Source: Siphonodentalium dalli (Eukaryota; Mollusca; Scaphopoda; Gadilida; Siphonodentaliidae). From it: a stretch of DNA of 64,000 bases. Made by a program: the position numbers and the translations under genes. The stretch covers positions 62,952,025-63,016,024 of the forward strand of contig CP136068.1 in assembly GCA_032622095.1 (NCBI GenBank). The letters run 5' to 3'. This document shows positions 1 through 64,000 of the stretch, one piece after another; position 1 is the stretch's first letter, and each line of letters opens with the position of its first letter. The notes under the pieces are model-generated. The model was not told where the DNA came from, did not search any database, and saw only the letters and a program-made list of their open reading frames with translations.

Positions 1-117
1 ATCAATGTTTTATTCAGACATTCTGGCATTTGCCCTTACATGTGCAGAACTTTGTACACTTTTGATTGGCGTGTGTACATTTACAGGTGACGCAATGGTT
101 CCTGCACTTGCACTTGA
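1..117. other. Flank of the decayed gene; nothing coding
   Basis: Short A/T-rich flank. The phrase 'attctggcatttg' near 20-35 recurs on the same strand at about 3308-3320, just beyond the other side of the broken gene. These could be remnants of element ends or of a duplicated target, but the match is too short to decide. Confidence 0.3.
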
Positions 118-3100
118 TCAGTTCTGTACAGCTGTCGCGCACCTGGCCCTGGTCGGCCCAGAGTGGTGACCACTTATCCTGGCCGGTCCAGCCCCACTCA
201 CTTGCGGGCAGAATGGTCTGTGAGCTTTGAGACTCTTGGCGATATCAGAGGCGTTGATATAACGATAGTCTTTACCTGTCCCCACATTAGAAGCTGCATC
301 TGCGACATGGACCATGATTCTAGTGTCCGCCTCTTCATGGTTACATGGGGCCAGTCGACCAGGATCTCTTATCGGGTTGCTCTTGGTGTTTTCGTCTTCT
401 GTGACAATGAGTTCTTTGCCACCAATCTGATTTAGCAACCGATTGTTCAAAAACTTGAATAACTGCTCCTAGTTGCTGGGCACTTGCAGAAATTCAGCCC
501 ATTTGCCGGGAATTGGTGTGAGAGCACACACTTTAATAATTTTTACTGGACCAGTACACCGCGAATCCCTCGCCTGTGCTTTTAAACTGTCACCAAAGTA
601 CCTATCCCAGACAATATCCACGCGACATGCGAATCCATACTGTAATCGGATATGCGGGTTGAATATCTTTGTGGCATACTCCAGGAAGGTCTTGCAGTCT
701 CTTGGTCGGAGTATGTTTACAAGCGCCGCAACATCGAAGATGGTTACATCCGTTGGTGGTCTATCCTGTGTCGGGGCATCTACAATTTGCTCCAAGCACG
801 ACATCAAGTCAGATTTATTGCCAAATCTGAGTCGTCCACCCTGGGATAATGCAACAGGAAATGACTGGTGTTCATGGCTGAAGAAATTATCCAGGTCCCC
901 TTGTCGTGTTTGGCAAGTGATGTTCAGCTTTGAAAACAAGGCACATTCACTCTTAAGAAGAGCAACAACAGTTTGCTTTCCTTTGGTTGAAGGTTTCTGT
1001 GGATGTTGTGCGAATAGTGTTACGTCGTTTCTTTTGATGGTGTCCGAGAGAGGGCTGCAGGTAGATTTGACAAGCATTCAACGCTGATTTGTGGCATAAT
1101 GTCCCGCGAATGTAGTCGTATCAGGTACTTGCTGTCTTCTGCAAAAGGGTTTCCGAATGCTTCTATTGCACTGGTTAATGATTTCACGTGGACTGCAAAT
1201 CTGTTTTGGTGCGATCTGGTTTGTTCATGGTGTAGATACGTTGTAGTTGATGAAACATTAATGTGACATGCGGATGAAGCTTCAAATTCTGCTATGCAAC
1301 GTACTACTTCTGCACTCGCCATTGCCCACCGATTGAGCGCATCGCCGTCTTGTGTGAGACCAATTATTCCACCATCCGACTTCATGACCGCGTTGTTCTG
1401 CTCATGTGCTTGGTCGATAGACATAGCTGAGAAATTCAGCAGCTACATCTGGGTGTGTAAGAGTAAGGTTGCGGATATCGCGTATATGCACAGGCATGCA
1501 TCGTGCGTAGTGAACGGGGTTCATGGGAAAAAACCAAGGTGTGAGTTCCTGTAGAGTATCCAAATACAACGTAAAGTTGCCCGTTCGCAGCGACCGTATG
1601 AATGCCAATACTAGCAGTTCCAAGTCTAAGGTTGTCACCCAGAAATTAAACTGGGGGCTATCTTTTGCTCTATGGACACACCATGATTCGAACGTTAGTT
1701 CCTCATCATCCATGTTATCTACAAGGTAATCGTTGTATGACCTCTTCATAAGGATACACAGTGAGCAGGCAGTGACCTGGTGAGCATGTCCGTCCTCTTG
1801 ATATGTGATGCTGCAAGGAATGATTCCGATACTCCAGGAGTAGCAATTCCCACCTCCGATAGGGACTCTATCCACCCACTTCCAGCGAGCCATTGGCCTA
1901 AGAGTTTGTATGCAGTTAATTCGGTGTGTAATCCACCTAACAAAACAACGCATTTGTCTTCTCCGTATACATCGGTGTCATCTGCCAACTGGACTTGCTT
2001 CATTTTTGCATATAGTGGTTGGTCCACACATTTGACAGCAGTCTGACCTGGGTTAGAATGCTCTATGGCTGCCATAATCACCTCCATGCAGTGCTTGACC
2101 ATTGGCACAGATGACGCTTCCTCTGTAAATGGTGGTAGCATCGCGTTTAGGATGTGATAGCATGTTGCTGGGTCATTCTGTTTGCATGGAAAGCAGACCA
2201 AGAGAGGTGTTCCGCTGTTTCTCCAACTGAGTGGTCAACATGTTTTAACCAATCAACTTCCGCGCTAATGTCAGCCTTTACTACATCACAACTGGTATAC
2301 TCAGTTGCACATATCGAGACAGTAACATCGCCATCTGGTAGAAATGCAGAAGATACAGTTGTGTAGCCAATGGGTAGATCTGACATTTGTCTCCGTTTTC
2401 TTATCACTCTCACCTGATGAGAAAATGATGAATTATGGCTTCTGATTTGTACACCTTCGTCTATGTTCTGAAACAGCGATTTACCAGTGCCATGGAATGA
2501 CGACATCGCAGTCATCGAACTTGGATTGTGGTCGATGTTATCGGCAGCAGCTGTGATAAAGTTTCCAGGTAATAGCTGTGGCGGACAGACAAAACCAATC
2601 TCGTTATAATAGTCACATACTGTGTTGCCGAGAGATGTGATGATGTCCATTATCCGGTCATAGGAATCTGAGATGCCCAGTGCGAACATACTGTCAATCA
2701 ACTGTCTCTGTCTTGTTAGGAATGTAACTTAAGACCGACATAAACTGGTATTGGTGGAGTGCGTTGTGGATTGTGTCTATAATTCACATCAACAAAACTT
2801 TTGTCCTTGCGTCTTCTTCTGAACTTCTGCGCATTGAACATGGTTAGTTGTGACACTGTTAACACAGGTTGGCTATATATTTGATCTTGAACCTGTTCTT
2901 CGATATTAGTACCATATATAACCATGCTCACCAATGCCAGCAGTGAATGTGGAACTGATTTTACTTGGCTTTGGACGTCATATTGCGTTTCGGTGGCGAA
3001 AATGTCCTTCATAATCGCATTGGCTATCCTGCGATTTGATAACATCTGCTCATCGCGATCGTTGTCCTAACCATGGCGCAATACTGATCCAATGTCGTCG

Positions 3101-16861: not shown

Positions 16862-19486
16862 TAGCTCAACTTTACTTTGTAAAGTTTGAGCTATTGCCAT
16901 GGCTTTGTCGTCCGTGTGTACGTGTGTGCGTGTGTGCGTGTGTACGTAAGGCGTCAACAATGCAGTCTACAGGTCGTGCCTTTGGTCGGATCATTATGAA
17001 ATTTGTCATAGCTGTTGACATCAACATTTAGACCAGAATGATTAATTTTGGGGTCATTCGGTCAAAAAACATGGCCGCCAGTGGCCATCTTGCATTTCAA
17101 AATTCAATCCATTAGCACGGGCTACAGGGCGTACTGTTTGTCTGATCGTCATGAAATTTGTCATGGATGTTAATATTGACATGTAGATGGGAACGAGTAA
17201 TTTTGGGGTCATTCGGCCCAAAAACATGGCCGCCAGCAGCCATCTTGGATTTTACTCTTTGTATGACTAAATTCTTTAGCACGGGCTACAGGTCGTACTT
17301 TTAGTCTGATCATCATAAAATTTGTCAAGAATGTTAATAATGACATGTAGATGGGAACGAGTCATTTTGAGGTCATTCGGCCAAAAAACATGGCCGCCAG
17401 CAGGCATCTTTGATTTCACTCTTTGTATGACTAAATCCTTTAGCACGGGCTACAGGTCGTACCTTTAGTCCGATCATCATAAAATTTGTCATGGCTGTTG
17501 AAATTGGAATGTAGATGGGAACGAGTCATTTTGGGGTCATTCGGACAAAAAACATGGCCGCCAGCGGCCATCTTGGATTTCAACAATTCAATCCATTAGC
17601 ACGGGCCACAGGTCGTACTGTTCGTCTGATCATCATGAAATTTGTCATGGATGTTAATATTGACATGTAGATGGGAACGAGTAATTTTGGGGTCATTCGG
17701 CCAAAAAACATGGCGGCCAGCAGCCTTCTTGGATTTTACTCTTTGTATGACTAAATTCTTTAGCACGGGCTACAGGTCGTACCTTTAGTCTGATCATCAT
17801 CAAATTTGTCATGGATGTTAATATTGACATGTAGATGGGAACGAGTAATTTTGGGGTCATTCGGCCAAAAAACATGGCCGCCAGCAGCCATCTTGGATTT
17901 TACTCTTTGTATGACTAAATCCTTTAGCACGGGCTACAGGTCGTACTTTTAGTCTGATCATCATAAAATTTGTCAAGAATGTTAATAATGACATGTAGTT
18001 GGGAACGAGTCATTTTGGGGTCATTCGGCCAAAAAACATGGCCGCCAGCAGGCATCTTTGATTTCACTCTTTGTATGACTAAATCCTTTAGCACGGGCTA
18101 CAGGTCGTACCTTTAGTCCGATCATCATAAAATTTGTCATGGCTGTTGAAATTGGAATGTAGATGGGAACGAGTCATTTTGGGGTCATTCGGACAAAAAA
18201 CATGGCCGCCAGTGGCCATCTTGGATTTCAAAATTCAATCCATTAGCACGGGCCACAGGTCGTACTGTTCGTCTGATCATCATGAAATTTGTCATGGATG
18301 TTAATATTGACATGTAGATGGGAACGAGTAATTTTGGGGTCATTCGGCCAAAAAACATGGCCGCCAGCAGCCATCTTGGATTTTACTCTTTGTATGACTA
18401 AATCCTTTAGCACGGGCTACAGGTCGTACTTTTAGTCTGATCATCATCAAATTTGTCAAGAATGTTAATAATGACATGTAGATGGGAACGAGTCATTTTG
18501 GGGTCAATCGGCCAAAAAACATGGCCGCCAGCAGCCATCTTGGATTTTACTCTTTGTATGACTAAATCCTTTAGCACGGGCTACAGGCCGTACCTTTAGT
18601 CTGATCATCATAAAATTTGTCATGGCTGTTGAAATTGGAATGTAGATGGGAACGAGTAATTTTGGGGTCATTCGGCCAATAAACATGGCCGCCAGTGGCC
18701 ATCTTGGATTTCAAAATTTAATCCATTAGCACGGGCCACAGGTCGTACTGTTCGTCTGATCATCATAAAATTTGTCATGGATGTTAACAATGACATGTAG
18801 ATGGGAACGAGTAATTTTGGGGTCATTCGGCCAAAAAACATGGTCGTCAGCAGCCATCTTGGATTTTACTCTTTGTATGACTAAATCCTTTAGCACGGGC
18901 TACAGGTTGTACCTTTAGTCTGATCATCATAAAATTTGTCGTGAATGTTAATAATGATATGTAGATGGGAACGAGTCATTTTGGGGTCATTCGGCAGAAA
19001 AACATGGCCGCCAGCAGCCATCTTTGATTTTACTCTTTGTATGACTAAATCCTTTAGCACGGGCTACAGGTCGTACCTTTAGTCTGATCATCATAAAATT
19101 TGTCATGGCTGTTGAAATTGGAATGTAAATGGGAACGAGTAATTTTGGGGTCATTCGGCAGAAAAACATGGCCGCCAGCAGCCATCTTTGATTTTACTCT
19201 TTGTATGACTAAATCCTTTAGCACGGGCTACAGGTCGTACATTTAGTCTGATCATCATAAAATTTGTCATGGATGTTAACGATGACATGTAGATGGGATA
19301 CAATCATTTTGGGGTCATTCGGCCGAAAACATGGCCGCCAGCAGCCATCTTGGATTTTACTTTTCTCTTCATGTCTATAAACTAGTATTAGACATTCAAC
19401 TTTCCACATTCCTAATCGCTCCATTGACTGTAATACATTAAATTATTCCCTTTCCAAGTTGAGCTACAGTGTCATTGACACTTTCA
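16862..19486 (+). repeat. Complete F1 hairpin-headed element with 14-monomer array
   Basis: Left end: hairpin agctcaactttac-ttt-gtaaagtttgagct (16863-16892), then 'attgccatgg', a TG/CG-rich tract and 'gcgtcaacaa'. The core is 14 monomers; the phrase 'agcacggg' recurs at 17114, 17278, 17442, 17598, 17762, 17926, 18090, 18245, 18409, 18573, 18728, 18892, 19056 and 19220. Steps are therefore 164 bp, with 155-156 bp for the variant carrying 'aattcaatccattagc'. Right end: 'tttccaagttgagcta' and the small hairpin agtgtcattgacact (19468-19482), ending at TTTCAT (19486). The outer 11 bp of both ends are inverted (tagctcaactt/aagttgagcta). The short and long monomers alternate in a higher-order pattern. 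No protein is encoded. Confidence 0.85.
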
Positions 19487-33894: not shown

Positions 33895-34440
33895 TCTTGA
33901 CATTTTAAGCTAAACTTGACCCAACAGGTCACTTCTCTCATCTGATCATCACCAAACTTCAAAGGGATCTTGGGGGTGACCTCTAGATGGGAGCTTACAA
34001 TTTTTTCTGAATTCTGTTAAAAAGACATGCTGTCATCTTTGATTTTACTATTTGTGTGACTAAATCCTTTCGCACACCCTAGAGGTCACATCTCTCAACC
34101 GATCATCATCAAACTTTATATGGATCTTCGGGGTGACCTAGATGTTTTCCGAAATTAATTTAAAAACATTGCCTTGGGGGATGACCTCCAGATAGGAGCA
34201 TAATAATATTTTTTCTGAATTATGTTAAGACATGACTGCCAACGGCCATCTTCATTTTACTCTGTATGACTAAATCCTTGAGCACACCCTACAGGTCACT
34301 TCTCTCATCTGATCATCACCAAACTTCATATGGATCTTCGGGGTGACCTCTAGATGGGAGCCATAATTTTTTTCCGAAATTCAGTTAAAAATTGTTTTGG
34401 AAATTTAGTCTTAGGGCCACCTCTAGATGAGAGCTATCAG
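33895..34440 (+). repeat. Diverged F1 array
   Basis: Three to four units with 'catctgatcatcaccaaac', 'ggggtgacctctagatggg' and 'tttttccgaaattc'. The middle block 'aacatggccgcc' is eroded. Confidence 0.7.
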
Positions 34441-34630
34441 TATGGTAAACATAGTGTCGTCCGAATTGACCACTCGTCGTTAGTCAGTCTGTCCGTCCGT
34501 AGACACTTTACACATAATGCGATAACTGAAACATTTTCTATCTGATCGTAACCAGATTTTGGTATGCGAGTTTCACAGCCCAAAATACAGATCGAGTTCG
34601 AATATGGATTTGATCCGTCTATTTTTAACT
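34441..34630 (+). repeat. F3 fragment
   Basis: 'agtctgtccgtccgtagaca' followed by one unit: 'gttttaca', 'ggtatgcgagtttcacagcc', 'agatcgagttcgaatatgg'. This is the forward version of units found reversed at 53.4, 55.1, 58.0 and 62.1 kb. Confidence 0.65.
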
Positions 34631-34859
34631 GAGTTCTGGCCTTTTTTCAAAAAAATATTCACTCTTTTAAAAAAATTTTTAAAAACTAAATAAATAAAAC
34701 AAAAATATTCTTCAAAATATTAATTAAAAACAATTTGTTTTTTTTAAAGTTAACAAAATTTGAAAAACTAACACCATTATAATTCTGCCAAGGGTACCCC
34801 GAGTAACCACACCAAATTTGTTTAAATCGGTCCAAAATCTTGTGTTATGTACTGGTAAA

Positions 34860-36004
34860 TTTGTAGTGACAATATGGTTATGAGTGTGTTGTACATGGTA
34901 AAATGTATAGGTATACAGGGAGAGGTCATGGTGAGGTGAATCGGTATGCATGGAGTGACTATGGTATATGGTTGTGTGTATCCAGTACGGGTGCACCTGA
35001 TGTCCCTGTATGGGCATTGATGTGGTGTTTGGATATAGCTACGTGGTCGTCTGTGTTGATTATGTATATATGGAATGTAAGGTCATGGGTGGGATGTACA
35101 TGTGTTGTCTAAATGATCACGTATAGGGGGTTTGGATAAATAGGGAGTATAAATAAATAGGTGTACATGGAATGACTGACTGTATGGTCATGATTGAAGT
35201 GCATATGCATACCTTGAGTAAGCTGGGTGGACATTATCGAACGTGTGGTTATATAGGGAGTGTCCTTGTGGTAACAGGTGAGGTGGGATGTATATTTATA
35301 TATCTCATGGATGTATTATCATTGGTGGGTGTATAGGGATTAGCTGTATGATCATGGATTGCGTGTATGATTATACAGTGGGTTGCTGAATTGTCATGTG
35401 TGAGGTGTATATGCAAGTATGGATGGTATTATGAGTGGTTGTGTGTGCAGGTTTTTTGTATATCTGGAAGGGCTGAATGGCCATTGGTGAGGAAGATACC
35501 TGGTTTGACTCTATGGTCGGCTGCACATGTATATATCGAGTGGTTATATGACTGTGTTGAATAGGTATACAGGTAGTGACTGTATGGTCAATGGTGATAT
35601 GAGTAGATGTAGGTATACAAAGAGTGACTGTATGATCATAATTGTAATGAATATCTATACAGGGAGTGACTAAATGGTCATGTGTACGAGTATACCTGGT
35701 GTTCCTGTTTGGTGAGTTGTGGCGATATGGTCATGTGTAGGTTATACGGGTATACACATGTGTTGCTATATGGTCATGGGCGAGGAGTATATGTATACAG
35801 CGAGCGGCTATATGGCCATGGATGAGGTGCATATGCATACATGGAGTGACTATACTGACATGGCTGGGTGTATCAGTATATCTTCAGTGGCTATGGGATG
35901 ACTATGTCCATAGGTAAGGTGAAGGAGTATACCAGGTGAGGGTATGTGTATGAAGAGATTGGCTATATGGCCATTGGTGAGGTGTATATGTATACCCGGA
36001 GTGA
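34860..36004 (+). repeat. Left arm of a large imperfect palindrome of diverged minisatellite
   Basis: Loose units of roughly 50-60 bp built around 'gtatacagggagtgac', 'tatggtcatg' and 'gtgaggtgtatatg'. The arm pairs with the right arm: 'ttgctgaattgtcatg' (about 35385) faces 'catgacaattcagcaa' (about 37777), and 'tcatgattgaagtg' (about 35188) faces 'cacttcaatcatga' (about 38945). After removing the two hAT-like insertions, both pairs give the same centre near 37045. Confidence 0.75.
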
Positions 36005-41910: not shown

Positions 41911-42295
41911 TACATATAACCATGAATTGCGCTTAAGCAATTGATTGCGCTTAAGCGCAATCATAATTACGCTTAAGCACAATTAATTATTAAATGTGAA
42001 TTTGGCGAATGCCGGCTGATACGGACCCTGGCTCTTACGGACCCTGGCTCATACGGACCCTGGCTCATACGGACCTCCGGCTCATACGGACCCTGGCTCA
42101 TACGGACCCCCGGCTTATACGGACCTTGGCTCATACGGACCTCAATTAAAATACACAATTTTATTTGTTATGTTTTATGTTTATTTAAATAAATTTAAAT
42201 TATGACAACATACATACAGAGAAAACAAAAATATGATTTCCCTTTTTCGCCGCATGGTTGAGTCGATTGTGCCAGATAATTGTTGTATAACTCAC

Positions 42296-42401
42296 CTGTG
42301 TCACAAACCCGATGCGTCAAACGGGAACATTCAGGTTCAATGCAGCCAATAACCTCCTGACGATGCCGAATAGTATCTCCACATGAAGCACAGTTAGACA
42401 T
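42296..42401 (-). CDS. Putative first exon with PHD/FLYWCH-type zinc finger (element Y)
   Basis: On the - strand an ATG at 42401 opens MSNCASCGDTIRHRQEVIGC followed by a second Cys pair region and THRVCDTG. At 42295 the sequence is CACAG|GTGAGT, an excellent splice donor placed exactly after the first base of the Gly codon. The spacing C-x2-C, RQE, C-x4-C, HR-x-C-x-TG resembles the zinc finger that precedes MULE transposase domains in many invertebrate transposon proteins (there usually followed by 'I'). Thus Y probably derives from a Mutator-like transposon and keeps only this exon. No following exon or transposase core is in the element. Function in isolation unknown. Confidence 0.5.
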
Positions 42402-42509
42402 TGTGGAATTATGCCAGTCAACAATAAATCAGTTGAATAAAATATATACCAGTTGTGTTTTTACTAACATGTTTTCATAACAAATCAAACTCAGTGGATT
42501 CATCCTGAT

Positions 42510-42740: not shown

Positions 42741-43090
42741 GCTTTTTTCAAGTCAGAACATCACCGAAATTCTCAATTAATACAGATATATACATAATTA
42801 TATATTAAATTCATAAATATAAGTAAAATTCATAAAGTTTGAAAATCACCAAAAAAATTACCGAAAATCTCAATTAATACAGATATATGTGTGAAAAGAC
42901 AATCATAATTTAAATTTATTTAAATAAACATAAAACATAAACAATAAAATTGAGGGTCCGTATAAGCCGGGGTCCGTATAAGCCAGGGTCCGTAAGAGCC
43001 GGTGGTCCGTAAAAGCCAGGGTCCGTAAGAGCCAGGGTCCGTAAGAGCCAGGGTCCGTATAAGCCGCATACCAATTTGGCCTCCCATATA

Positions 43091-46681: not shown

Positions 46682-46846
46682 TCAGCATCTTTCAAACACC
46701 TTATACAGATCTGGTAGGTTGGCTATCTGTAGAATGGTGGCATCATGAGAATGTTTCTTCTGTGGTTGTAACATAGTCCGAAATGCTGGAAATAACACAT
46801 GTTCAACTGTCCATTTCCATCCGTCTGTTTCTGCTTTCTGTAATAT
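46682..46846 (-). CDS. MLH1: DNA mismatch repair protein MLH1, last exon
   Basis: MLH1 pairs with PMS2 to form MutL-alpha, the endonuclease that acts after MutS recognises a mismatch. The 165-bp exon (54 codons plus TGA at 46682-46684) reads [20 protein letters not shown] ... and ends with [17 protein letters not shown]. Human MLH1 ends with SWKWTVEHIVYKALRS ... [17 protein letters not shown], so identity is clear. The terminal F-E-R-C is the near-invariant MLH1 tail; structural work on the yeast complex showed that it contributes to the partner's nuclease site. The acceptor on the - strand is 'attatgattatag' before 46846, phase 0, matching the phase-0 end of the exon at 55828. The coding part is one codon shorter than in the human last exon. 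Confidence 0.96.
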
Positions 46847-50341: not shown

Positions 50342-51054
50342 AGTGTATTCACAATTTAAAAGTAGAGAGTATTTATTTGGACAACCCACTCATCAGTCTA
50401 TGTACGCCTAGTTGTGTACGACTACAATACTAGTTGCGATGCTATACAGGAATCGTACAGTAATGATATGTTCCTTTCGACCCACTTAAACATTACTATG
50501 TCTTCGAAATGTCACGTCTGCCTGAATCAAACAAGGTATTCCGATACTATTTAGCTACTTTTATTCGACTCCGCATGTAACAAAACTGTATTTGGGGGTT
50601 GAGGAAATATGTTGTATTCTGTGATGAAATTGTGTATAGGTCAAGGGTGGGGTCTGCAATTGTTTTCCGAACACTAGACGGGCGGTGGTTGGTTCTGCAG
50701 CTATGCTTACACATTTTTCCAGGCCCTGTAATTTTGTTCCTAGAGTCATTTTTCTTCAAAATAATGGACAGAAGGTTTTAAGAATGCTTCTATTATGTAA
50801 TATGTATACATATGCACTTAACCCTTGGTAGGGGGTTTGAGTTCACCAGCAGTTAATAATGAGGAATGACACCAAGGGGTAATAAAAATGTCAGCTTGCT
50901 AAATGCTCAAGGATCTATCAATGCACATTGGCATGGAAAGGCTCATATGTAAATAGTTCTATTAAAAATAATTTATTCAACCTGGTGTAAATGAAAGCAT
51001 AACACAATTGTAGATTCTTCAAATAAATGTAAACTCTTCACGTAAAGGTACTCA

Positions 51055-51229
51055 AGTATTTGGGGTGGGGGAGGAGCAGTTTTAAATATCATAACTCTGT
51101 CCCTATTCACACAAGGACCTCTCACTGTGAGATCCAATGGTTTAGCCATTAATCAATTTGACAGATAGGATAAACAATTATCCAGCCTGCCGGTTGTTTA
51201 TCTTTACCTTCTTACAACAACTGGAGCCA
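51055..51229 (+). repeat. 175-bp direct repeat, copy 1
   Basis: 'agtatttggggtgggggagg' to 'ggttgtttatctttacctt'. Copy 2 at 52866-53030 differs at only a few positions. The two copies bracket the right arms of the inverted repeats. Confidence 0.88.
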
Positions 51230-52705: not shown

Positions 52706-52865
52706 CGAGAGGCCGATCACGATCGGCAGATGTTTAACCCATACCTTGGCGATAGCGATTAGCTATAACTGATAATTGGTCAAAGATATGATCACAGTAA
52801 TCCATATATCAGTACCTAACTTAAAATCAAAAGCTCAAATAATTTGTCTTAAGAAGGGGTTAAAG

Positions 52866-53030
52866 TATTTGGGGTGGGGGAGGAGCAGTTTTAAATCTCA
52901 TAACTCTGTCCCTATTCACACAAGGACCTCTCACTGTGAGATCCAATGGTTTAGCCATTAATCAATTTGACAGATAGGATAAACAATTATCCAGCCAGCC
53001 GGTTGTTTATCTTTACCTTCATACAACCAC
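52866..53030 (+). repeat. 175-bp direct repeat, copy 2
   Basis: See 51055-51229. The sequence 'agatccaatggtttagcc' and 'gacagataggataaac' are identical in both. Confidence 0.88.
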
Positions 53031-53383
53031 CCCCTAGAGCTCTGTAGTCTGTAACATATGTCATCCCTCAATTAATAACAGATTTTGCTTGGAATGACAT
53101 ATATTAAAGGTACATGTACTCTCATATACTCAGGATATTGGATGTTCACAGGGTAATTTATTGATATCATTATATTACATGCAACTATTGCAATAAAATC
53201 TTCATATTTTAAACAGGACATCACACCTAATTAATGGTATACAACTAAAACAAATTAGTGTCAATGAATTTTTTTTTTTTTAATTAAATAAAATTTATAT
53301 TATAAAAGTTTTTAAATATTTTTTGTGTGTTCAATCTAAAAAAATTAAATAAAAATTCCAAAAAGGGTCATAACTCCTTTAAA
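53031..53383. other. A/T-rich intronic stretch
   Basis: Nothing coding. It ends in an F3-type unit ('aaaagggtcataactccttt') just before the duplicated block begins at 53384. Confidence 0.5.
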
Positions 53384-55031
53384 ATAAATCGAATCAAACC
53401 CATATTCGAACTCGATCTGTATTTTGGGCTGAAAATCTCACATACCAAATTTGGTGTCAATCAGATAAAAAATGTTTGAGTTATGGCAGCATGCATGAAT
53501 TCGAAAAAGGGCCATAACTCTTTAAACGAAACTCGGATCAAACCCATATACTGTATTTTGGGCTGAGAAACCTATATACAAAATTTGGTTCCGATCAAAT
53601 AGAAAATCTTTGAGTTATCGCATTATGCCTAAAGTGTCTATGGACGGACAGACAGACGGACGGATGAACGACAAGTGGCCAATCCGGACGTTGACACTAT
53701 GTGTACCATACTATGGTATGGATACACATAAAAAGTTTTATCTCATGCAGAGTACAAGAAAAATGTATCAAACCTGGTGTGCCCCTTTAATATTTCAACT
53801 CACATTTGTAATCAATTGAAATCAATGTCGAAAAAGCTTTCCATTAATATATAAATAAACAAACTAGATTTTTAAAAAAATTTAATTTAATTTTTTTTCC
53901 CCAGCACCTACATGACAAAAAATCATCTTACGGTTTTATAAGCTCAACTTACTTTGTAAGTTTGAGCTATTGCCATGGTTTGGCGTCCGTCGTCCGTGTG
54001 TGTGTGTGTCCGTCAACAATTTCCTTTGGCGCGGGCTACAGGTCATACCTTTGATCTGATCTTTATGAGATTTGTCATGAATGTTGACATTGACAAAAAA
54101 CATGGCCGCTGGCAGCCATCTTGGATATCAAAATTCAATCCATTGGCGCGGGCTACAGGTCGTACTGTTTGTCTGATCATCACGAAATTTATCATGGATG
54201 TTAATATTGACATGTAGATGGGAACGAGTTATTTTGGGGTCGTTCGGCCAAAAAACATGGCCACCAGCAGCCATCTTGGATTTTACTCTTTGCATGACTA
54301 AATCCTTTGGCGCGGGCTACAGGTTGTAGCTTTCATCGGAACTTCATGAAATTTGTGATGGATGTTAACAATGACATGTAAGATGGAACGAGTCATTTTG
54401 GTGTCGTTCGGCCTAAAAACAGGCCGCCAGCAGCCATCTTGGATTTTACTCTTTGCATGACTAAATCCTTTGGCGCGGGCTACAGGTCGTACCTTTGGTC
54501 CGATGTTTATGAAGTTTGTCATGAATGTTGCCATTGACATGTAAATGGGAACAAGTCATTTTGGTGTCATTCGGCAAAAAAACATGGCTGCTGGCAGCCA
54601 TCTTGGATTTCAAAATTCAATCCATTGGCGCGGGCTACAGGTCGTACTGTTCGTCTGATTATCATGAAATTTGTCATGGATGTTAGTATTGACATGTAGA
54701 TGGGAACGATTGATTTTGGGGTCGTTCGGCCAAAAAACATGGCCACCAGCAGCCTTCTTGGATTTTACTCTTCTTTGCATGACTAAATCCTTTGGCGTTG
54801 GCTACAGGTCGTACCTTTGGTCTGATCTTTATGAAATTTGTCCTGAATGTTGATATTGACATGTAGATGTGAACGAGTAATTTTGGGGTCATACAGCCAA
54901 AAAACATGGCCGCTGGCGGCCATCTTGGATTTCAAAATTCAATCCATTGGCACGGGCTACAGGTCGTACTGTTCGTCAGATCATCATGATATTTATCATG
55001 GATGTTAATATTAACATGTAGATGGGAACGA
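53384..55031. repeat. Segmental duplication block A, copy 1
   Basis: Matches 57975-59622 at a constant offset of 4591 bp with only a handful of differences (for example cattatgcct/cattatgccc near 53628, and ctatggacgg/ctacggacgg). It contains a reversed F3 element with the palindromic head at 53700-53728 and an F1 element from 53940 with seven monomers ('gggctacagg' at about 54032-54954). The F1 array is cut off at 55031, where block B starts. Confidence 0.95.
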
Positions 55032-55032
55032 T

Positions 55033-57028
55033 TGGGCGGATTGTACCCATATTCGAACTTGACCTGTATTTCGAGCTGATAAACGCACATTCCAAATTTG
55101 TCAAAAACTATACAGATGAGGGGTGTGTCATCATAAACCAAAATATCAAATATGAACACAATCGGACAAAAAATACTTCGGTTATAGCATCGGATTTTTT
55201 TAATTTAATTTTTTAAAATTTTATTTTCGAAAAAAGGGTCATAACTCCTTTAAAATAAATCGGATCAAACCCATATTCGAACTCAATCTGTATTTTGGGC
55301 TCTGAAACTCGCATACCAAATTTGGTTCCGATCAGATAAAAATTGTTGGAGTTATGACAGCATGCGTGAATTCGAAGTCGAATAAGGGCCATAACTCTGT
55401 AAAAAAAAACTCGGATCAAACCCATATTCAAACTCAATCTGTATTTTGGTCTGAGAAACTCATATACAAAATTTAGTTATCGCACCATGCGTAAAGTGTC
55501 TACGGACAGACAGACAGACAGAAGGACGGACGCATGACGAGTGGTCAATCCGGAAGTCGACATTATGTTTACCATACTATGGATGTAAACACAAAAAGGG
55601 CCATAACTCGCAAAAATGGGCGGAGCAAACCCATATTCGAACTTGACCTGTATTTTGGTCTGATAAACTCACCTATGAAATTTGCTTTTGATCTAATAAC
55701 CGAAACTAAAGTTATCATCCGGAAACCATTTCCGGACGCACACACGCATAGACACAGGCTATTTTAATAGTCCCCTGAAATTTTTTTTTTTGGGGGACAA
55801 ATATGGCAAGTTAAAACTGCAGAGTACCTTTTCCTCCTCTTTTGTTGGCACAAACACAGTTTTCTTCATAGCGTAGAAGTCAGCAGTTTCTTTTGCATAA
55901 GATTCAAAGCATTCCTTCTCTGAATCCCAGTTAACCTACAAAAATAAAAAAACAATAAATAAATACAATTTAACACTGGAATAACATCATTTCTGGAAGC
56001 CAATTATATTGCCAGAGATAATGGCAACCTACAGCGGCGAAATTTAAAAAAAATAATTAAACAAGACAGTCAATGACTGTGGGTCGCTCACCAGACTGTA
56101 AGGACTGAGAAGACAGGGACTCTTGAAGACTACAAGAGTCAGTACTTGACAGAATCACTTAAGTTCTAAACATGGACAGAGCTGGATGTTCTCAAATGAG
56201 CAGGGCTCTTCACCTTGAAATTTCTAATTGCACATCACTGACAAATTTCCAACCTCTTACCTTTTAAAGTGGACAACCATACCACAGTACTAAGTTCACA
56301 AAAAACACTTTGTACATTCCTCTTATGTTGAATTTTACGACTGGTACCAGTACTTCAAGCTTTCAAACGTTTGATAATTACCAACCTGACACCCCCATAA
56401 AGTTAAAAATTTGTGGCCAATTCGGTCCAACAGTTTAACCTGAAGTAGAAACATATGGACTGATGGTTTAAAAACATACATGTTAGAAAATCAAACCAAA
56501 CTACGAGAACAGTTCTAACTTATTTTTGGTGTGAACATCTAATCTACAACTAATTTAGTATAGGGGGGTCAAATCTCCACCCCTCTACACTCCCTCCCCA
56601 TTGCCTCAAACATTGCCCCCACCCAGGCTGTCTAGAAATCAATATTATCATACCAGTACCAAACAGCATAGAGGAGAGTTAAATCTCTTATCTCTGCCCC
56701 AATTAGAACAAATGTGAATCCTCATCTATGAGATCCATTCATCTAGTAATATCAATATACCCCCCAATTTTCTTTGAAAAATCAGGGAATGATTTCACGT
56801 GGATAAGTGCTGGTTAAGAAACTAATATTGGAACAGCCGAGTCTGTATTTAGTGTCTGACCTTAGCAGGTGAATTTAATGACAATATTCCGCAAGGTGGA
56901 CTAACATCACCAAATTCACCCTCTGGGGACCTCATTTCCTAAAAATGACCCCATGAACAAATATGAACCCCAGTCACCCAAGGCCCTCCATACCAAATAT
57001 AAGCTATATAGGCCTAATGGTTCTTGAG
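55033..57028. repeat. Segmental duplication block B, copy 1
   Basis: Matches 62007-64000 at an offset of 6974 bp, becoming 6972 after a 2-bp difference ('gactgtgggtcgc' / 'gactgggtcgc' near 56075). Other differences include 'acgtggataag' / 'acctggataag'. It contains reversed F3 units (55040-55760), the MLH1 exon at 55828-55935 and reversed F2 tail and array (56060-57028). Because the right copy reaches the window edge, the duplication may extend further. Confidence 0.95.
55828..55935 (-). CDS. MLH1: MLH1 penultimate exon (copy 1)
   Basis: A 108-bp exon on the - strand between 'tttttgtag' (ending 55936) and 'gtactct' (from 55827), phase 0 at both ends. It encodes VNWDSEKECFESYAKETADF followed by YAMKKTVFVPTKEEEK. 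Human MLH1 exon 18 (114 bp, also phase 0-0) encodes [20 protein letters not shown] then YSIRKQYISEES, so homology and exon boundaries agree. This region belongs to the C-terminal dimerisation domain that binds PMS2. It splices in frame to the last exon at 46846. An identical-looking copy is 6974 bp away at 62802-62909. If both are real, transcripts could include one or both without a frame change. Confidence 0.95.
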
Positions 57029-57974
57029 AAAAAACTGTTTTAAGACTTACTATGGAGGAAAAGAGTTATGGCCCTGGCTTGGCACCTACATGTATTTGAT
57101 GTGATGAACTTAATTGAACAAATCTGATTGTGAGACACCTAGGGAACATGCACACTGAACTATATAAACACATTCCGTCTTTAATATGGAGTCGAAATCA
57201 ATTTGTTGATAGATGGATGGAAGCCTGACAGATAGAAGACAAATATAATCCAATATATACCCCCCCCCCCCCCATTTTTCTTTGAATATTAGTCGTATGA
57301 TTTCATCTGGATAAGTGGTGATTAAAAAAATAATATGAAATGGCCAAACCTGAATTTAGTATGTCTGACATTTGCAGAATTAGGTCCCAAAAATGTGGAT
57401 TTAATGACAATATTCTGTAAGGCAGGCTAGCATCACCAAATTCATCCTCAATCTGATTAGGCCTCAATGGCCAATAAAACCAAGGAACAGATTGAAGTCC
57501 TACAGTTGAAGTTGGTGATACACACCCATTGAGCACCTCAATTATGCATTTTATCTTCTGCAAATTAGGGGGACATTGAAACTGAACAGGTGGAAAAAGT
57601 GACTAAATCAAACTGTCAATTTGATACTTAGGATACTTCCCAGAAGATGAGGACTAAGCAGATTAGGTCCCTGGCGGGTGTATTTGGTGATGCTAGCATG
57701 CTGTATGGGGTAGCAACACTAAATTCTCCATCTGGGGACCTCACTATGTAAATGTCAGACACACTATTTCCAGACTTGAAGAAATCAAAGCCATTCACAG
57801 TATCATTGAATGTCAGTCATCACCTAATGGGAGCACCAGTTTGTTGTTAAATTGCTACAGATATGTTTAGATTAGAATAATACATGTCATCTGGCCAGTT
57901 TATATAATTAATGATCTGTACCTTTACAGATATATATGCCTCTGTGGTGAGAAGAGGTATTAAATTGAGAGGTG
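57029..57974. other. Spacer between the duplicated blocks
   Basis: Not duplicated within the window. It holds a C14 run (57260-57273) and a loose duplication of 'caccaaattcatcc' / 'actaaattctccatctgggg', also related to 56905-56930. An 86-codon - strand frame (57303-57563) has no recognisable domain. No MLH1 exon is seen here. Confidence 0.5.
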
Positions 57975-59622
57975 ATAAATCGAATCAAACCCATATTCGA
58001 ACTCGATCTGTATTTTGGGCTGAAAATCTCACATACCAAATTTGGTGTCAATCAGATAAAAAATGTTTGAGTTATGGCAGCATGCATGAATTCGAAAAAG
58101 GGCCATAACTCTTTAAACGAAACTCGGATCAAACCCATATACTGTATTTTGGGCTGAGAAACCTATATACAAAATTTGGTTCCGATCAAATAGAAAATCT
58201 TTGAGTTATCGCATTATGCCCAAAGTGTCTACGGACGGACAGACAGACGGACGGATGAACGACAAGTGGCCAATCCGGACGTTGACACTATGTGTACCAT
58301 ACTATGGTATGGATACACATAAAAAGTTTTATCTCATGCAGAGTACAAGAAAAATGTATCAAACCTGGTGTGCCCCTTTAATATTTCAACTCACATTTGT
58401 AATCAATTGAAATCAATGTCGAAAAAGCTTTCCATTAATATATAAATAAACAAACTAGATTTAAAAAAAAATTTAATTTAATTTTTTTTCCCCAGCACCT
58501 ACATGACAAAAAATCATCTTACGGTTTTATAAGCTCAACTTACTTTGTAAGTTTGAGCTATTGCCATGGTTTGGCGTCCGTCGTCCGTGTGTGTGTGTGT
58601 CCGTCAACAATTTCCTTTGGCGCGGGCTACAGGTCATACCTTTGATCTGATCTTTATGAGATTTGTCATGAATGTTGACATTGACAAAAAACATGGCCGC
58701 TGGCAGCCATCTTGGATATCAAAATTCAATCCATTGGCGCGGGCTACAGGTCGTACTGTTTGTCTGATCATCACGAAATTTATCATGGATGTTAATATTG
58801 ACATGTAGATGGGAACGAGTTATTTTGGGGTCGTTCGGCCAAAAAACATGGCCACCAGCAGCCATCTTGGATTTTACTCTTTGCATGACTAAATCCTTTG
58901 GCGCGGGCTACAGGTTGTAGCTTTCATCGGAACTTCATGAAATTTGTGATGGATGTTAACAATGACATGTAAGATGGAACGAGTCATTTTGGTGTCGTTC
59001 GGCCTAAAAACAGGCCGCCAGCAGCCATCTTGGATTTTACTCTTTGCATGACTAAATCCTTTGGCGCGGGCTACAGGTCGTACCTTTGGTCCGATGTTTA
59101 TGAAGTTTGTCATGAATGTTGCCATTGACATGTAAATGGGAACAAGTCATTTTGGTGTCATTCGGCAAAAAAACATGGCTGCTGGCAGCCATCTTGGATT
59201 TCAAAATTCAATCCATTGGCGCGGGCTACAGGTCGTACTGTTCGTCTGATTATCATGAAATTTGTCATGGATGTTAGTATTGACATGTAGATGGGAACGA
59301 TTGATTTTGGGGTCGTTCGGCCAAAAAACATGGCCACCAGCAGCCTTCTTGGATTTTACTCTTCTTTGCATGACTAAATCCTTTGGCGTTGGCTACAGGT
59401 CGTACCTTTGGTCTGATCTTTATGAAATTTGTCCTGAATGTTGATATTGACATGTAGATGTGAACGAGTAATTTTGGGGTCATACAGCCAAAAAACATGG
59501 CCGCTGGCGGCCATCTTGGATTTCAAAATTCAATCCATTGGCACGGGCTACAGGTCGTACTGTTCGTCAGATCATCATGATATTTATCATGGATGTTAAT
59601 ATTAACATGTAGATGGGAACGA
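57975..59622. repeat. Segmental duplication block A, copy 2
   Basis: See 53384-55031. Here the F1 array is not cut: it runs on for about two more monomers to roughly 59900. Confidence 0.95.
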
Positions 59623-60208
59623 GTGGTTTTGGGGTCGTTTGGCTAAAAAACATGTCCGCCAGCAGCCATATTGGATTTTACTCTTTGCATGACTAAATCC
59701 TTTGGTGCGGGATACAGGTCGTAGCTTTGGTCGGAACTTCAAGAAATTTTTCATGAATGTTAACAATGACATGTAGATGGGAAACGAGTCATTTTAGAAT
59801 TTACACTTTGCATCAATAAATCCTTTGGCACACCATAATCACCACATCCCTGATCCGATCATTATGAAACCTGTCATGAATGTTGATATTGACATGTACA
59901 TCTAGTCTTACTTAGATTTAGTTACTTAGGGGGGATTGTCCAGACCAGGATATCCACCACCTACATGACAAAAAAAATCAACTTATGGTTTTATCGCTTA
60001 GTTTGCTTTATATAGTCATGAAACAGAGAGAAATTAACTTCTTCCGAGAAAAAGTTGTTTCAGTCAGGGTTTGCGGGGTGGGGGAAATGTCCAGGTCAGG
60101 AGGATATATATTATTGTCGCTGTACTGTCTATACCATTACCATCAGGGTGGCAGTAGTTACTATACATACATTGGAGTGGGTCTTGCCGAATTGATTTGA
60201 AGATTTAA
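59623..60208. other. Rest of F1 array and spacer, present only in copy 2
   Basis: 59623-59900 continues the + oriented F1 monomers ('cagcagccatattggatttt', 'cctttggcacaccataatc'). 59901-60208 is unremarkable spacer. This stretch, the reversed F1 element and the 61740-62006 segment form the 2384 bp missing from copy 1. Confidence 0.7.
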
Positions 60209-61739
60209 ATGAAAGTGTCAATGACACTGTAGCTCAACTTGGAAAGGGAATAATTTAATGTGTTACTGTCGATGGAGTGATTAGGAAAGTGGAAAGTTGA
60301 ATGTCTAATACTAGTTTATCAACATGAAGAGATATAGAACAGTAAGACCTGTAGCCCGTGCTAATGGATTGAATTTTGAAATCCAAGATGGCCACTGGCG
60401 GCCATGTTTTTTTTCCAAATGACCCCAAAATGACTCGTTCCCATCTACATTCCAATTTCAACAGCCATGACAAATTTTTTGATGATCAAACTAAAGGTAC
60501 GACCTGTAGCCCGTGCTAAAGGATTTAGTCATACAACGAGTAAAATCCAAGATGGCTGCTGGCGGCCATGTTTTTTGGCCGAATGGCCCCAAAATGACTC
60601 GTTCCTATTTAGATGTCATTGTTAACATCCATGACAAATTTCATGATGATCAGACTAAATGTATGACCTGTAGCCCGTGCTAAAGGATTTAGTCATACAA
60701 AGAGTAAAATCCAAGATGGCTGCTGCGGTCATGTTTTTTGGCTGAATGACCACAAAATTAATCGTTCCCATCTACATGTCAATATTAACATCCATGACAA
60801 ATTTCATGATGATCAGACGAACAGTACGACCTGTAGCCAGTGCTAATGGATTGAATTTTGAAATCAAAGATGGCCGCTGGTGGCCATGTTTTTCATCCGA
60901 ATGACCCCAAAATGACTCGTTCCCATCTACATTCCAATTTCAACAGCCATGAAAAATTTCATGATGATCAGACTCAAGGTACGACCTGTAGTCCGTGCTA
61001 AAGGATTTAGTCATACAAAGAGTAAAATCCAAGATGGCTGCTGGTGGCCATGTTTTTTGGCCGAATGACCCCAAGATGACTCGTTCCCATCTACATTCCA
61101 CTTTCAACAGCCATGACAAATTTCATGATGATGAGACTAAAGGTACGACCTGTAGCCCGTGCTAAAGGATTTAGTCATACAAAGAGTAAAATCCAAGATG
61201 GCTGCTGGCGGTCATATGTTTTGGCCGAATGACCCAAAAATGACTCGTTCCCATCTACATGTCATTGTTAACATCCATGACAAATTTTATGATGATCCGA
61301 CCAAAGGTACGACCTGTAGCCTGTGTCAAAGGATTTAGTCATGCAAAGAGTAAAATCTAAGATGGCTGCCAGCGGCCATGTTTTTTGGCCGAATGACCCC
61401 AAAATTACTCGTTCCCATCTACATGTCAATATTAACATCCATGACAAATTTCATGACAATAAGACTAACAGTACGGCCTGTAGCCCGTGCTAATGGATTG
61501 AATTTTGAAATCCAAGATGGCCGCTGGCGGCCATATTTTTTCCCCCGAATAATCCCAAAATGACTCGTTCCCATCTACATGTCAATGTCAACATCCATGA
61601 CAAATTTCATAATAATCGGACCAAAGGTACGAACTGTAGCCCGTGCTAAAGGAAATTGTTGACGAATCACGCACACACACGCACGACGGATACCAAGCCA
61701 TGGCAATAGCTCAAACTTTACAAAGTAAAGTTGAGCTAA
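60209..61739 (-). repeat. Complete F1 element, reverse orientation, 9 monomers
   Basis: Read on the - strand it starts with the head 'ttagctcaactttacttt' (61739 down) and 'attgccatgg'. Nine monomers follow ('gtagcccgtgctaa' on + at about 60351-61637), and it ends with 'ccaagttgagctac', 'agtgtcattgacact' and TTTCAT (60209). The ends are identical in arrangement to the copy at 16862-19486, which confirms the element boundaries. Confidence 0.85.
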
Positions 61740-62006
61740 TAAAAGTCCGTCCGGCCACAGGGTCCCCCGAAAAAGTGGCTTCATTGGGGCATCAGCTTTT
61801 CTGAAAAAAATAACAAGGACCCTAAATCCGAAGCAACCAGACAAAAATGGGTGGATTGTACCCATATTCGAACTTGATCTGTATTTCGAGCTGATAAACT
61901 CATACCATATTTGATTCAGATATGATCACACAAACTAAAGTTATCATCCGGAAACCAGAAATTGACATGATTCTAAGTAAAAAAAGGGCCATAACTCTAG
62001 CAAAAA
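61740..62006 (-). repeat. Reversed F3 unit adjoining the F1 element
   Basis: Contains 'gtacccatattcgaacttga' and 'gtatttcgagctgataaac' (F3 units, - orientation) after 'gtccgtccggccac'. Present only next to copy 2 of block B. Confidence 0.65.
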
Positions 62007-64000
62007 TGGGCGGATTGTACCCATATTCGAACTTGACCTGTATTTCGAGCTGATAAACGCACATTCCAAATTTGTCAAAAACTATACAGATGAGGGGTGT
62101 GTCATCATAAACCAAAATATCAAATATGAACACAATCGGACAAAAAATACTTCGGTTATAGCATCGGATTTTTTTAATTTAATTTTTTAAAATTTTATTT
62201 TCGAAAAAAGGGTCATAACTCCTTTAAAATAAATCGGATCAAACCCATATTCGAACTCAATCTGTATTTTGGGCTCTGAAACTCGCATACCAAATTTGGT
62301 TCCGATCAGATAAAAATTGTTGGAGTTATGACAGCATGCGTGAATTCGAAGTCGAATAAGGGCCATAACTCTGTAAAAAAAAACTCGGATCAAACCCATA
62401 TTCAAACTCAATCTGTATTTTGGTCTGAGAAACTCATATACAAAATTTAGTTATCGCACCATGCGTAAAGTGTCTACGGACAGACAGACAGACAGAAGGA
62501 CGGACGCATGACGAGTGGTCAATCCGGAAGTCGACATTATGTTTACCATACTATGGATGTAAACACAAAAAGGGCCATAACTCGCAAAAATGGGCGGAGC
62601 AAACCCATATTCGAACTTGACCTGTATTTTGGTCTGATAAACTCACCTATGAAATTTGCTTTTGATCTAATAACCGAAACTAAAGTTATCATCCGGAAAC
62701 CATTTCCGGACGCACACACGCATAGACACAGGCTATTTTAATAGTCCCCTGAAATTTTTTTTTTTGGGGGACAAATATGGCAAGTTAAAACTGCAGAGTA
62801 CCTTTTCCTCCTCTTTTGTTGGCACAAACACAGTTTTCTTCATAGCGTAGAAGTCAGCAGTTTCTTTTGCATAAGATTCAAAGCATTCCTTCTCTGAATC
62901 CCAGTTAACCTACAAAAATAAAAAAACAATAAATAAATACAATTTAACACTGGAATAACATCATTTCTGGAAGCCAATTATATTGCCAGAGATAATGGCA
63001 ACCTACAGCGGCGAAATTTAAAAAAAATAATTAAACAAGACAGTCAATGACTGGGTCGCTCACCAGACTGTAAGGACTGAGAAGACAGGGACTCTTGAAG
63101 ACTACAAGAGTCAGTACTTGACAGAATCACTTAAGTTCTAAACATGGACAGAGCTGGATGTTCTCAAATGAGCAGGGCTCTTCACCTTGAAATTTCTAAT
63201 TGCACATCACTGACAAATTTCCAACCTCTTACCTTTTAAAGTGGACAACCATACCACAGTACTAAGTTCACAAAAATCACTTTGTACATTCCTCTTATGT
63301 TGAATTTTACGACTGGTACCAGTACTTCAAGCTTTCAAACGTTTGATAATTACCAACCTGACACCCCCATAAAGTTAAAAATTTGTGGCCAATTCGGTCC
63401 AACAGTTTAACCTGAAGTAGAAACATATGGACTGATGGTTTAAAAACATACATGTTAGAAAATCAAACCAAACTACGAGAACAGTTCTAACTTATTTTTG
63501 GTGTGAACATCTAATCTACAACTAATTTAGTATAGGGGGGTCAAATCTCCACCCCTCTACACTCCCTCCCCATTGCCTCAAACATTGCCCCCACCCAGGC
63601 TGTCTAGAAATCAATATTATCATACCAGTACCAAACAGCATAGAGGAGAGTTAAATCTCTTATCTCTGCCCCAATTAGAACAAATGTGAATCCTCATCTA
63701 TGAGATCCATTCATCTAGTAATATCAATATACCCCCCAATTTTCTTTGAAAAATCAGGGAATGATTTCACCTGGATAAGTGCTGGTTAAGAAACTAATAT
63801 TGGAACAGCCGAGTCTGTATTTAGTGTCTGACCTTAGCAGGTGAATTTAATGACAATATTCCGCAAGGTGGACTAACATCACCAAATTCACCCTCTGGGG
63901 ACCTCATTTCCTAAAAATGACCCCATGAACAAATATGAACCCCAGTCACCCAAGGCCCTCCATACCAAATATAAGCTATATAGGCCTAATGGTTCTTGAG
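62007..64000. repeat. Segmental duplication block B, copy 2 (continues past the window)
   Basis: See 55033-57028. It includes the second copy of the MLH1 penultimate exon. Confidence 0.95.
62802..62909 (-). CDS. MLH1: MLH1 penultimate exon (copy 2)
   Basis: Same 108-bp exon with the same splice sites as 55828-55935; I see no base difference in the exon. In the - strand gene order it lies upstream of copy 1. Splicing 62802 to 55935 and then 55828 to 46846 would duplicate 36 residues of the MLH1 C-terminal domain in frame, while skipping either copy gives the normal protein. Whether this is a true genomic duplication or two haplotypes joined in assembly cannot be told from the sequence alone. 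Confidence 0.93.

Follow-up and report, generated by a model that had tools for sequence, protein, structure and literature searches.

Does the mismatch-repair gene MLH1 of the scaphopod Siphonodentalium dalli contain the same exon twice and, if the assembled sequence says so, does the chromosome? The question is raised by a stretch of 64,000 nucleotides of contig CP136068.1 (assembly GCA_032622095.1, positions 62,952,025 to 63,016,024 of the forward strand), hereafter the window, in which an earlier note had described an in-frame tandem duplication of the homologue of human MLH1 exon 18. The duplication is present in the sequence; its existence on the chromosome is favoured by a gap-free joint without homology on its left side. 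With a probability of about 0.58, we read the locus as a real, young tandem duplication inside MLH1 that arose by a non-homologous event. Both units would then lie on one and the same chromosome, and the duplicated form may be an allele that is not fixed in the species. The label exon 18 follows the numbering of the human gene and comes from none of the analyses.

The two copies of the exon lie on the same strand, 6974 bp apart and with intact splice sites, as had been claimed, and are identical at 108 of 108 positions. Both have the acceptor ...TTTTTGTAG/G and the donor AAG/GTACTC (slashes mark exon borders), and the introns measure 6866 bp between the copies and 8981 bp from the downstream copy to the last exon. 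Either copy is translated into the same 36 residues, VNWDSEKECFESYAKETADFYAMKKTVFVPTKEEEK. This product matched the Pfam domain Mlh1_C (E = 1.1e-06, 28.7 bits, cut-off 25) with residues 1-28 of 36, and MLH1 chains of the PDB (E = 7.3e-06 to 8.1e-06, 5 of 5 listed sequences) with residues 1-26 or 1-27, while the C-terminal 8-10 residues had no alignment in either match. The last exon matched Mlh1_C over 46698-46846 at E = 3.2e-12 with 46.9 bits, and at 1.2e-15 when frames were scanned. In the frame scan the upstream copy reached 29.5 bits in an alignment beginning about 18 residues ahead of the exon, a stretch of translated intron that we take as a chance extension, and the downstream copy, lying inside a long frame, reached only 20.9 bits, which is under the cut-off of 25. 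The acceptor of the last exon is at 46846 and is entered in phase 0. Because the reading frame runs on into the last exon, the 108-bp exon is in phase 0 at both ends, in agreement with the earlier statement that double inclusion keeps the frame. Translation of the last exon ends the product in FERC-stop, and FERC is described as the conserved end of MLH1 in fungi and animals (PMC3814310).

Motif searches and profile scans of three frames revealed no other MLH1 exon on the minus strand between 46600 and 64000; as the downstream exon copy itself fell under the cut-off, a short, less conserved exon could escape these scans. Within 55936-64000, the three minus-strand frames gave no Mlh1_C match besides the exon-18 copy, with the same proviso for a short exon, and matches to BNYVV_p31, DDE_Tnp_IS1 and DUF2102 were all under their cut-offs and were discounted. 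An exon-17 motif had no match in the six frames of the window, and Rfam yielded 0 matches at the gathering score. The N-terminal ATPase domain and the exons ahead of exon 18 would be located past position 64000.

Each exon copy is embedded in a kilobase-scale repeat, of which it accounts for no more than 2 to 3%; the earlier note had understated this extent. Self-comparison of the window, filtered for pairs of at least 150 bp and at least 97% identity with mirror rows dropped, left 3 pairs. Block A pairs 53384-55035 with 57975-59626 (99.7% identity, offset 4591), and block B pairs 55033-57028 with 62007-64000 (99.8%, offset 6974), where the alignment stops at the window edge. Since one tandem repeat with a length difference of 2383 bp accounts for both blocks, we treat them as two adjacent units (Table 1). 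Block A contains 5 mismatches, 1 of these at the deletion edge, and block B contains 2 mismatches and a 2-bp indel (one TG of TGTG), so that, with the deletion-edge base left out, the units diverge by 6 substitutions in 3642 bp (0.16%). Judged from these alignments, chance cannot be the source of a repeat of such length and identity. The exon is part of an identical run of 1047 bp, and its own identity is therefore uninformative about selection. No MLH1 exon was seen in the right part of unit 1 by motif and profile scans. The third pair is a direct repeat of 165 bp (51054-51218 and 52863-53027, 98.2%), situated just left of the duplicated unit.

Table 1. Features of the MLH1 locus, in window coordinates
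Feature	Position	Strand	Basis or remark
MLH1 exon-18 homologue, transcript-upstream copy, unit 2	62802-62909	minus	sequence, motif, identity to other copy
MLH1 exon-18 homologue, transcript-downstream copy, unit 1	55828-55935	minus	Pfam Mlh1_C, PDB MLH1 chains
Last MLH1 exon, coding part, FERC-stop end	46682-46846	minus	translation, Mlh1_C; 46682 hand-counted from translation
Repeat unit 1, 4591 bp, 2.38-kb interior segment of unit 2 deleted	53384-57974		self-alignment
Repeat unit 2, directly after unit 1, truncated by window end	57975-64000		self-alignment
New unit junction	57974-57975		interrupts dispersed repeat left whole at 53383/53384
Segment kept in unit 2, missing from unit 1	59623-62006		unit 1 edge about 55032-55035, TGG shared
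Right part of unit 1	57029-57974		predicted partner 64001-64946, past window
Satellite array, unit 1	54137-55034		periods 155, 167, 322
Satellite array, unit 2, same orientation as unit 1 array	58728-59795
Satellite array, unit 2, inverted orientation	60379-61653		period 164

Which of the borders are derived was read from self-matches at E up to 1e-3 within the window. In the 201 bp around 53383/53384, where a dispersed repeat extends to both sides, the edge was crossed by 10 of 14 non-self matches, several of them being partner copies in units 1 and 2 and hence not all independent. At 57974/57975, none of the 14 non-self matches began before 57975, and the preceding 101 bp matched only themselves. 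A dispersed repeat that is cut at 57974/57975 but crossed at 53383/53384 implies that the former is the derived joint. The same reasoning applies to the length difference: in unit 2, position 59626 in the satellite was crossed by 14/14 of the non-self matches listed and position 62007 in a dispersed repeat by 12 of 18, whereas none of the 29 non-self matches listed bridged the corresponding site in unit 1, where left-hand matches ended at or before 55035 and right-hand matches started at 55033. This identifies the 2.38-kb difference as a loss in unit 1. The deletion edge shows the shared TGG and one unmatched base, and the loss took in, from a fold-back pair of arrays (58728-59795 and 60379-61653), the end of the first, the spacer and the inverted partner. 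A non-homologous event, by end joining or template switch, would have duplicated an MLH1 segment holding one exon, and one unit would subsequently have lost, or already have been without, 2.38 kb of fold-back satellite.

Related satellites also surround the downstream exon copy, which is located between the arms 53934-55033 and, inverted, 60337-61739. These arms gave 15 overlapping alignments, the three longest with 82.3-83.1% identity over 908-958 bp, and a longest perfect run of 50 bp. The array 58728-59795 aligned to the same inverted arm with 82.4% identity over 1130 bp and encloses no exon. Elsewhere in the window, about 14.8 copies of a 164-bp satellite at 16967-19361 resemble arrays of both MLH1 units and, in the opposite orientation, the inverted one of unit 2. 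Exact scans for a 21-base core of the satellite in the collections viral_contigs and genome_contigs, and for a 25-base pattern of the dispersed repeat in viral_contigs, gave 0 matches, a result of little weight because neither collection is one of animals. Non-autonomous Helentron elements of the Pacific oyster form similar dispersed short arrays, with monomers of 140-180 bp (PMC7492417) as compared to periods of 155-167 bp here; the likeness is one of period and dispersal.

The window contains 0 N among its 64000 bases, and no assembly gap separates the units. The sequence left of the joint showed no similarity to that left of 53384 above shuffled sequence, the observed score being reached by 79, 196 and 38 of 200 shuffles at 60, 200 and 500 bp, respectively, and flush microhomology on this side was 0 bp. 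No overlap is thus seen by which an overlap-based assembler could have made the join, and it is this combination of a gap-free joint and missing left-side homology that favours a duplication in the chromosome. A joint so blunt leaves a non-homologous duplication in the organism, a gap-filler product, or a chimeric read. Several points weigh against the first of these. The right end of unit 2, with any microhomology there, lies past the window end. Six substitutions, a 2-bp indel and the 2.38-kb indel over 3.64 kb are the difference expected between alleles of a low-diversity animal, and the one structural difference between the units is in satellite. The joint itself falls inside a dispersed repeat, and repeats are a usual site of contig breaks. 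Moreover, the donor AAG/GTACTC is not a strong match to the consensus, so that inclusion of the exon may be partial. Ko et al. (PMC9516828) also report joints that result from wrong gap filling and lack read support. The units could accordingly be two alleles of one locus, with and without the 2.38-kb satellite segment, placed one after the other by the assembler or by gap filling, in which case the gene has one exon 18. We consider this a possibility to be taken seriously, if a tentative one: the allele-like 0.16% of substitutions, the single structural difference in satellite and the position of the joint within a dispersed repeat are what it would lead one to expect, and false exon gains have been documented as a class (PMC9516828), but the window is without N, the left side of the joint offers no homology for an overlap-based join, and the window holds no other long near-identical pair, only the one of 165 bp. 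As marks of false duplications, Ko et al. (PMC9516828) list half depth, a gap between the copies, discordant reads and one-copy k-mers, and a tandem duplication in one contig proved in their study to be true and allele-specific. False exon gains by heterotype duplication, as described there, share with this locus near-identical neighbouring copies with allele-like differences; an assembly gap between the copies, one of the marks listed, is missing here. If the join were an assembly error, gene prediction could annotate a non-existent MLH1 longer by 36 residues.

On the reading of a real tandem duplication, transcripts containing both copies would encode 36 extra in-frame residues; this part of the earlier note follows from the DNA on condition that both copies are spliced in. 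None of the usual bars to double inclusion is seen, since the copies share acceptor and donor, the introns are long and the frame is kept. Transcripts with a single copy would also be expected because skipping either copy restores the order 17-18-19, and some normal MLH1 is likely to be made. The note had further raised mutually exclusive use of the copies, which these results weaken. Mutual exclusion is usually enforced by a short intron or a frame shift, and the anatomy excludes both mechanisms: an intron of 6866 bp is no steric bar, and double inclusion of 108 bp is in frame, so decay would not clear it. Both copies carry the same GT-AG sites and, with 108/108 identical bases, a choice between them would alter nothing. 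Although the copies are equal in length, phase and splice sites, features that serve to predict mutually exclusive pairs (PMC3228551), and competing RNA structures known as selector sequences are described as another mechanism of mutual exclusion (PMC6071210), we regard regulated choice of one copy per transcript as highly improbable. Scarcely better is the prospect of a real duplication in which one copy is seldom used, for instance because the downstream exon, which lies between the pairing arms 53934-55033 and 60337-61739, is looped out by the inverted satellites; the inverted arm can pair instead with the nearer array 58728-59795, in which case no exon is enclosed.

A real duplication would have consequences for the protein. 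MLH1 binds PMS2 via its C-terminal domain (PMC12064032), and in yeast the C-terminal end of MLH1 functions in the endonuclease site (PMC3814310). Double inclusion would probably harm the protein, as the extra residues would fall within the C-terminal domain, immediately ahead of the segment with the FERC end, and single-inclusion transcripts would make the allele tolerable. Satellite arms around the downstream copy could favour its skipping or back-splicing, with the array 58728-59795 competing for the same arm. Taken to its full extent, this would describe a carried MLH1 allele that gives normal MLH1 together with an in-frame form in which a 36-residue stretch of the C-terminal domain is doubled, its share being set by skipping of one of the identical copies, the position of the downstream copy between complementary satellite arms possibly favouring skipping or circular RNA. 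We offer this version as speculative and improbable; if true, the allele would represent a graded mismatch-repair variant occurring in nature. Carriage of the duplication in another species would provide a natural test of insertion tolerance in the C-terminal domain of MLH1.

Other features of the window lie apart from this locus. On the minus strand, 14-3066 comprises eight overlapping or abutting open frames with shifting phases and a cysteine-rich end and resembles an intronless coding sequence in decay; nothing in Pfam matched the five frames scanned (E up to 0.1). Minisatellites at 42012-42143 and 42953-43065 with 16-base units look related by eye on opposite strands (GGCTCATACGGACCCT in the former and GGCTTTTACGGACCCT in the complement of the latter). 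A strong GC skew of +0.268 was found at 34001-36000, together with repetitive minus-strand open frames rich in H, T and I. Finally, a cysteine-rich open frame on the minus strand at 42195-42428 had weak matches, under cut-off, to SLX1_C (E = 0.021) and a PHD-type finger (E = 0.076).

In the parts of the literature consulted on MLH1 exon 18 and tandem duplication, Lynch exon duplication and mollusc exon duplication, no report of this duplication outside human was found. The kind of variant is already known, and the present case is a very young new example, or an error. Tandem exon duplications are stated to occur in about 10% of animal genes, according to a study cited in PMC9013439. As in those cases, homologous adjacent exons are found here in one gene, on one strand and with the frame kept. 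In contrast to them, the copied unit greatly exceeds the exon in size (4.6 to a predicted 7 kb), and the copies are still identical, too young to show retention by selection. In a cancer-gene panel, tandem duplications were three (results) or two (discussion) of four tested exon duplications; they were classed as pathogenic, and the sections consulted name cases in MSH2 and PMS2 and none in MLH1 (PMC11918821). Copy-number and structural changes are given as about 10% of pathogenic human MLH1 variants (PMC11742971), and the same source describes the closest counterpart, a human MLH1 allele in which the region around exons 18-19 is duplicated in tandem and one of the copies is partly deleted. 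The scaphopod locus shares with it the gene end concerned and a tandem duplication with a deletion inside one copy. However, the human event, found in a Lynch syndrome work-up, cuts exons, whereas in the scaphopod both copies of the exon are complete and the deleted sequence is intronic.

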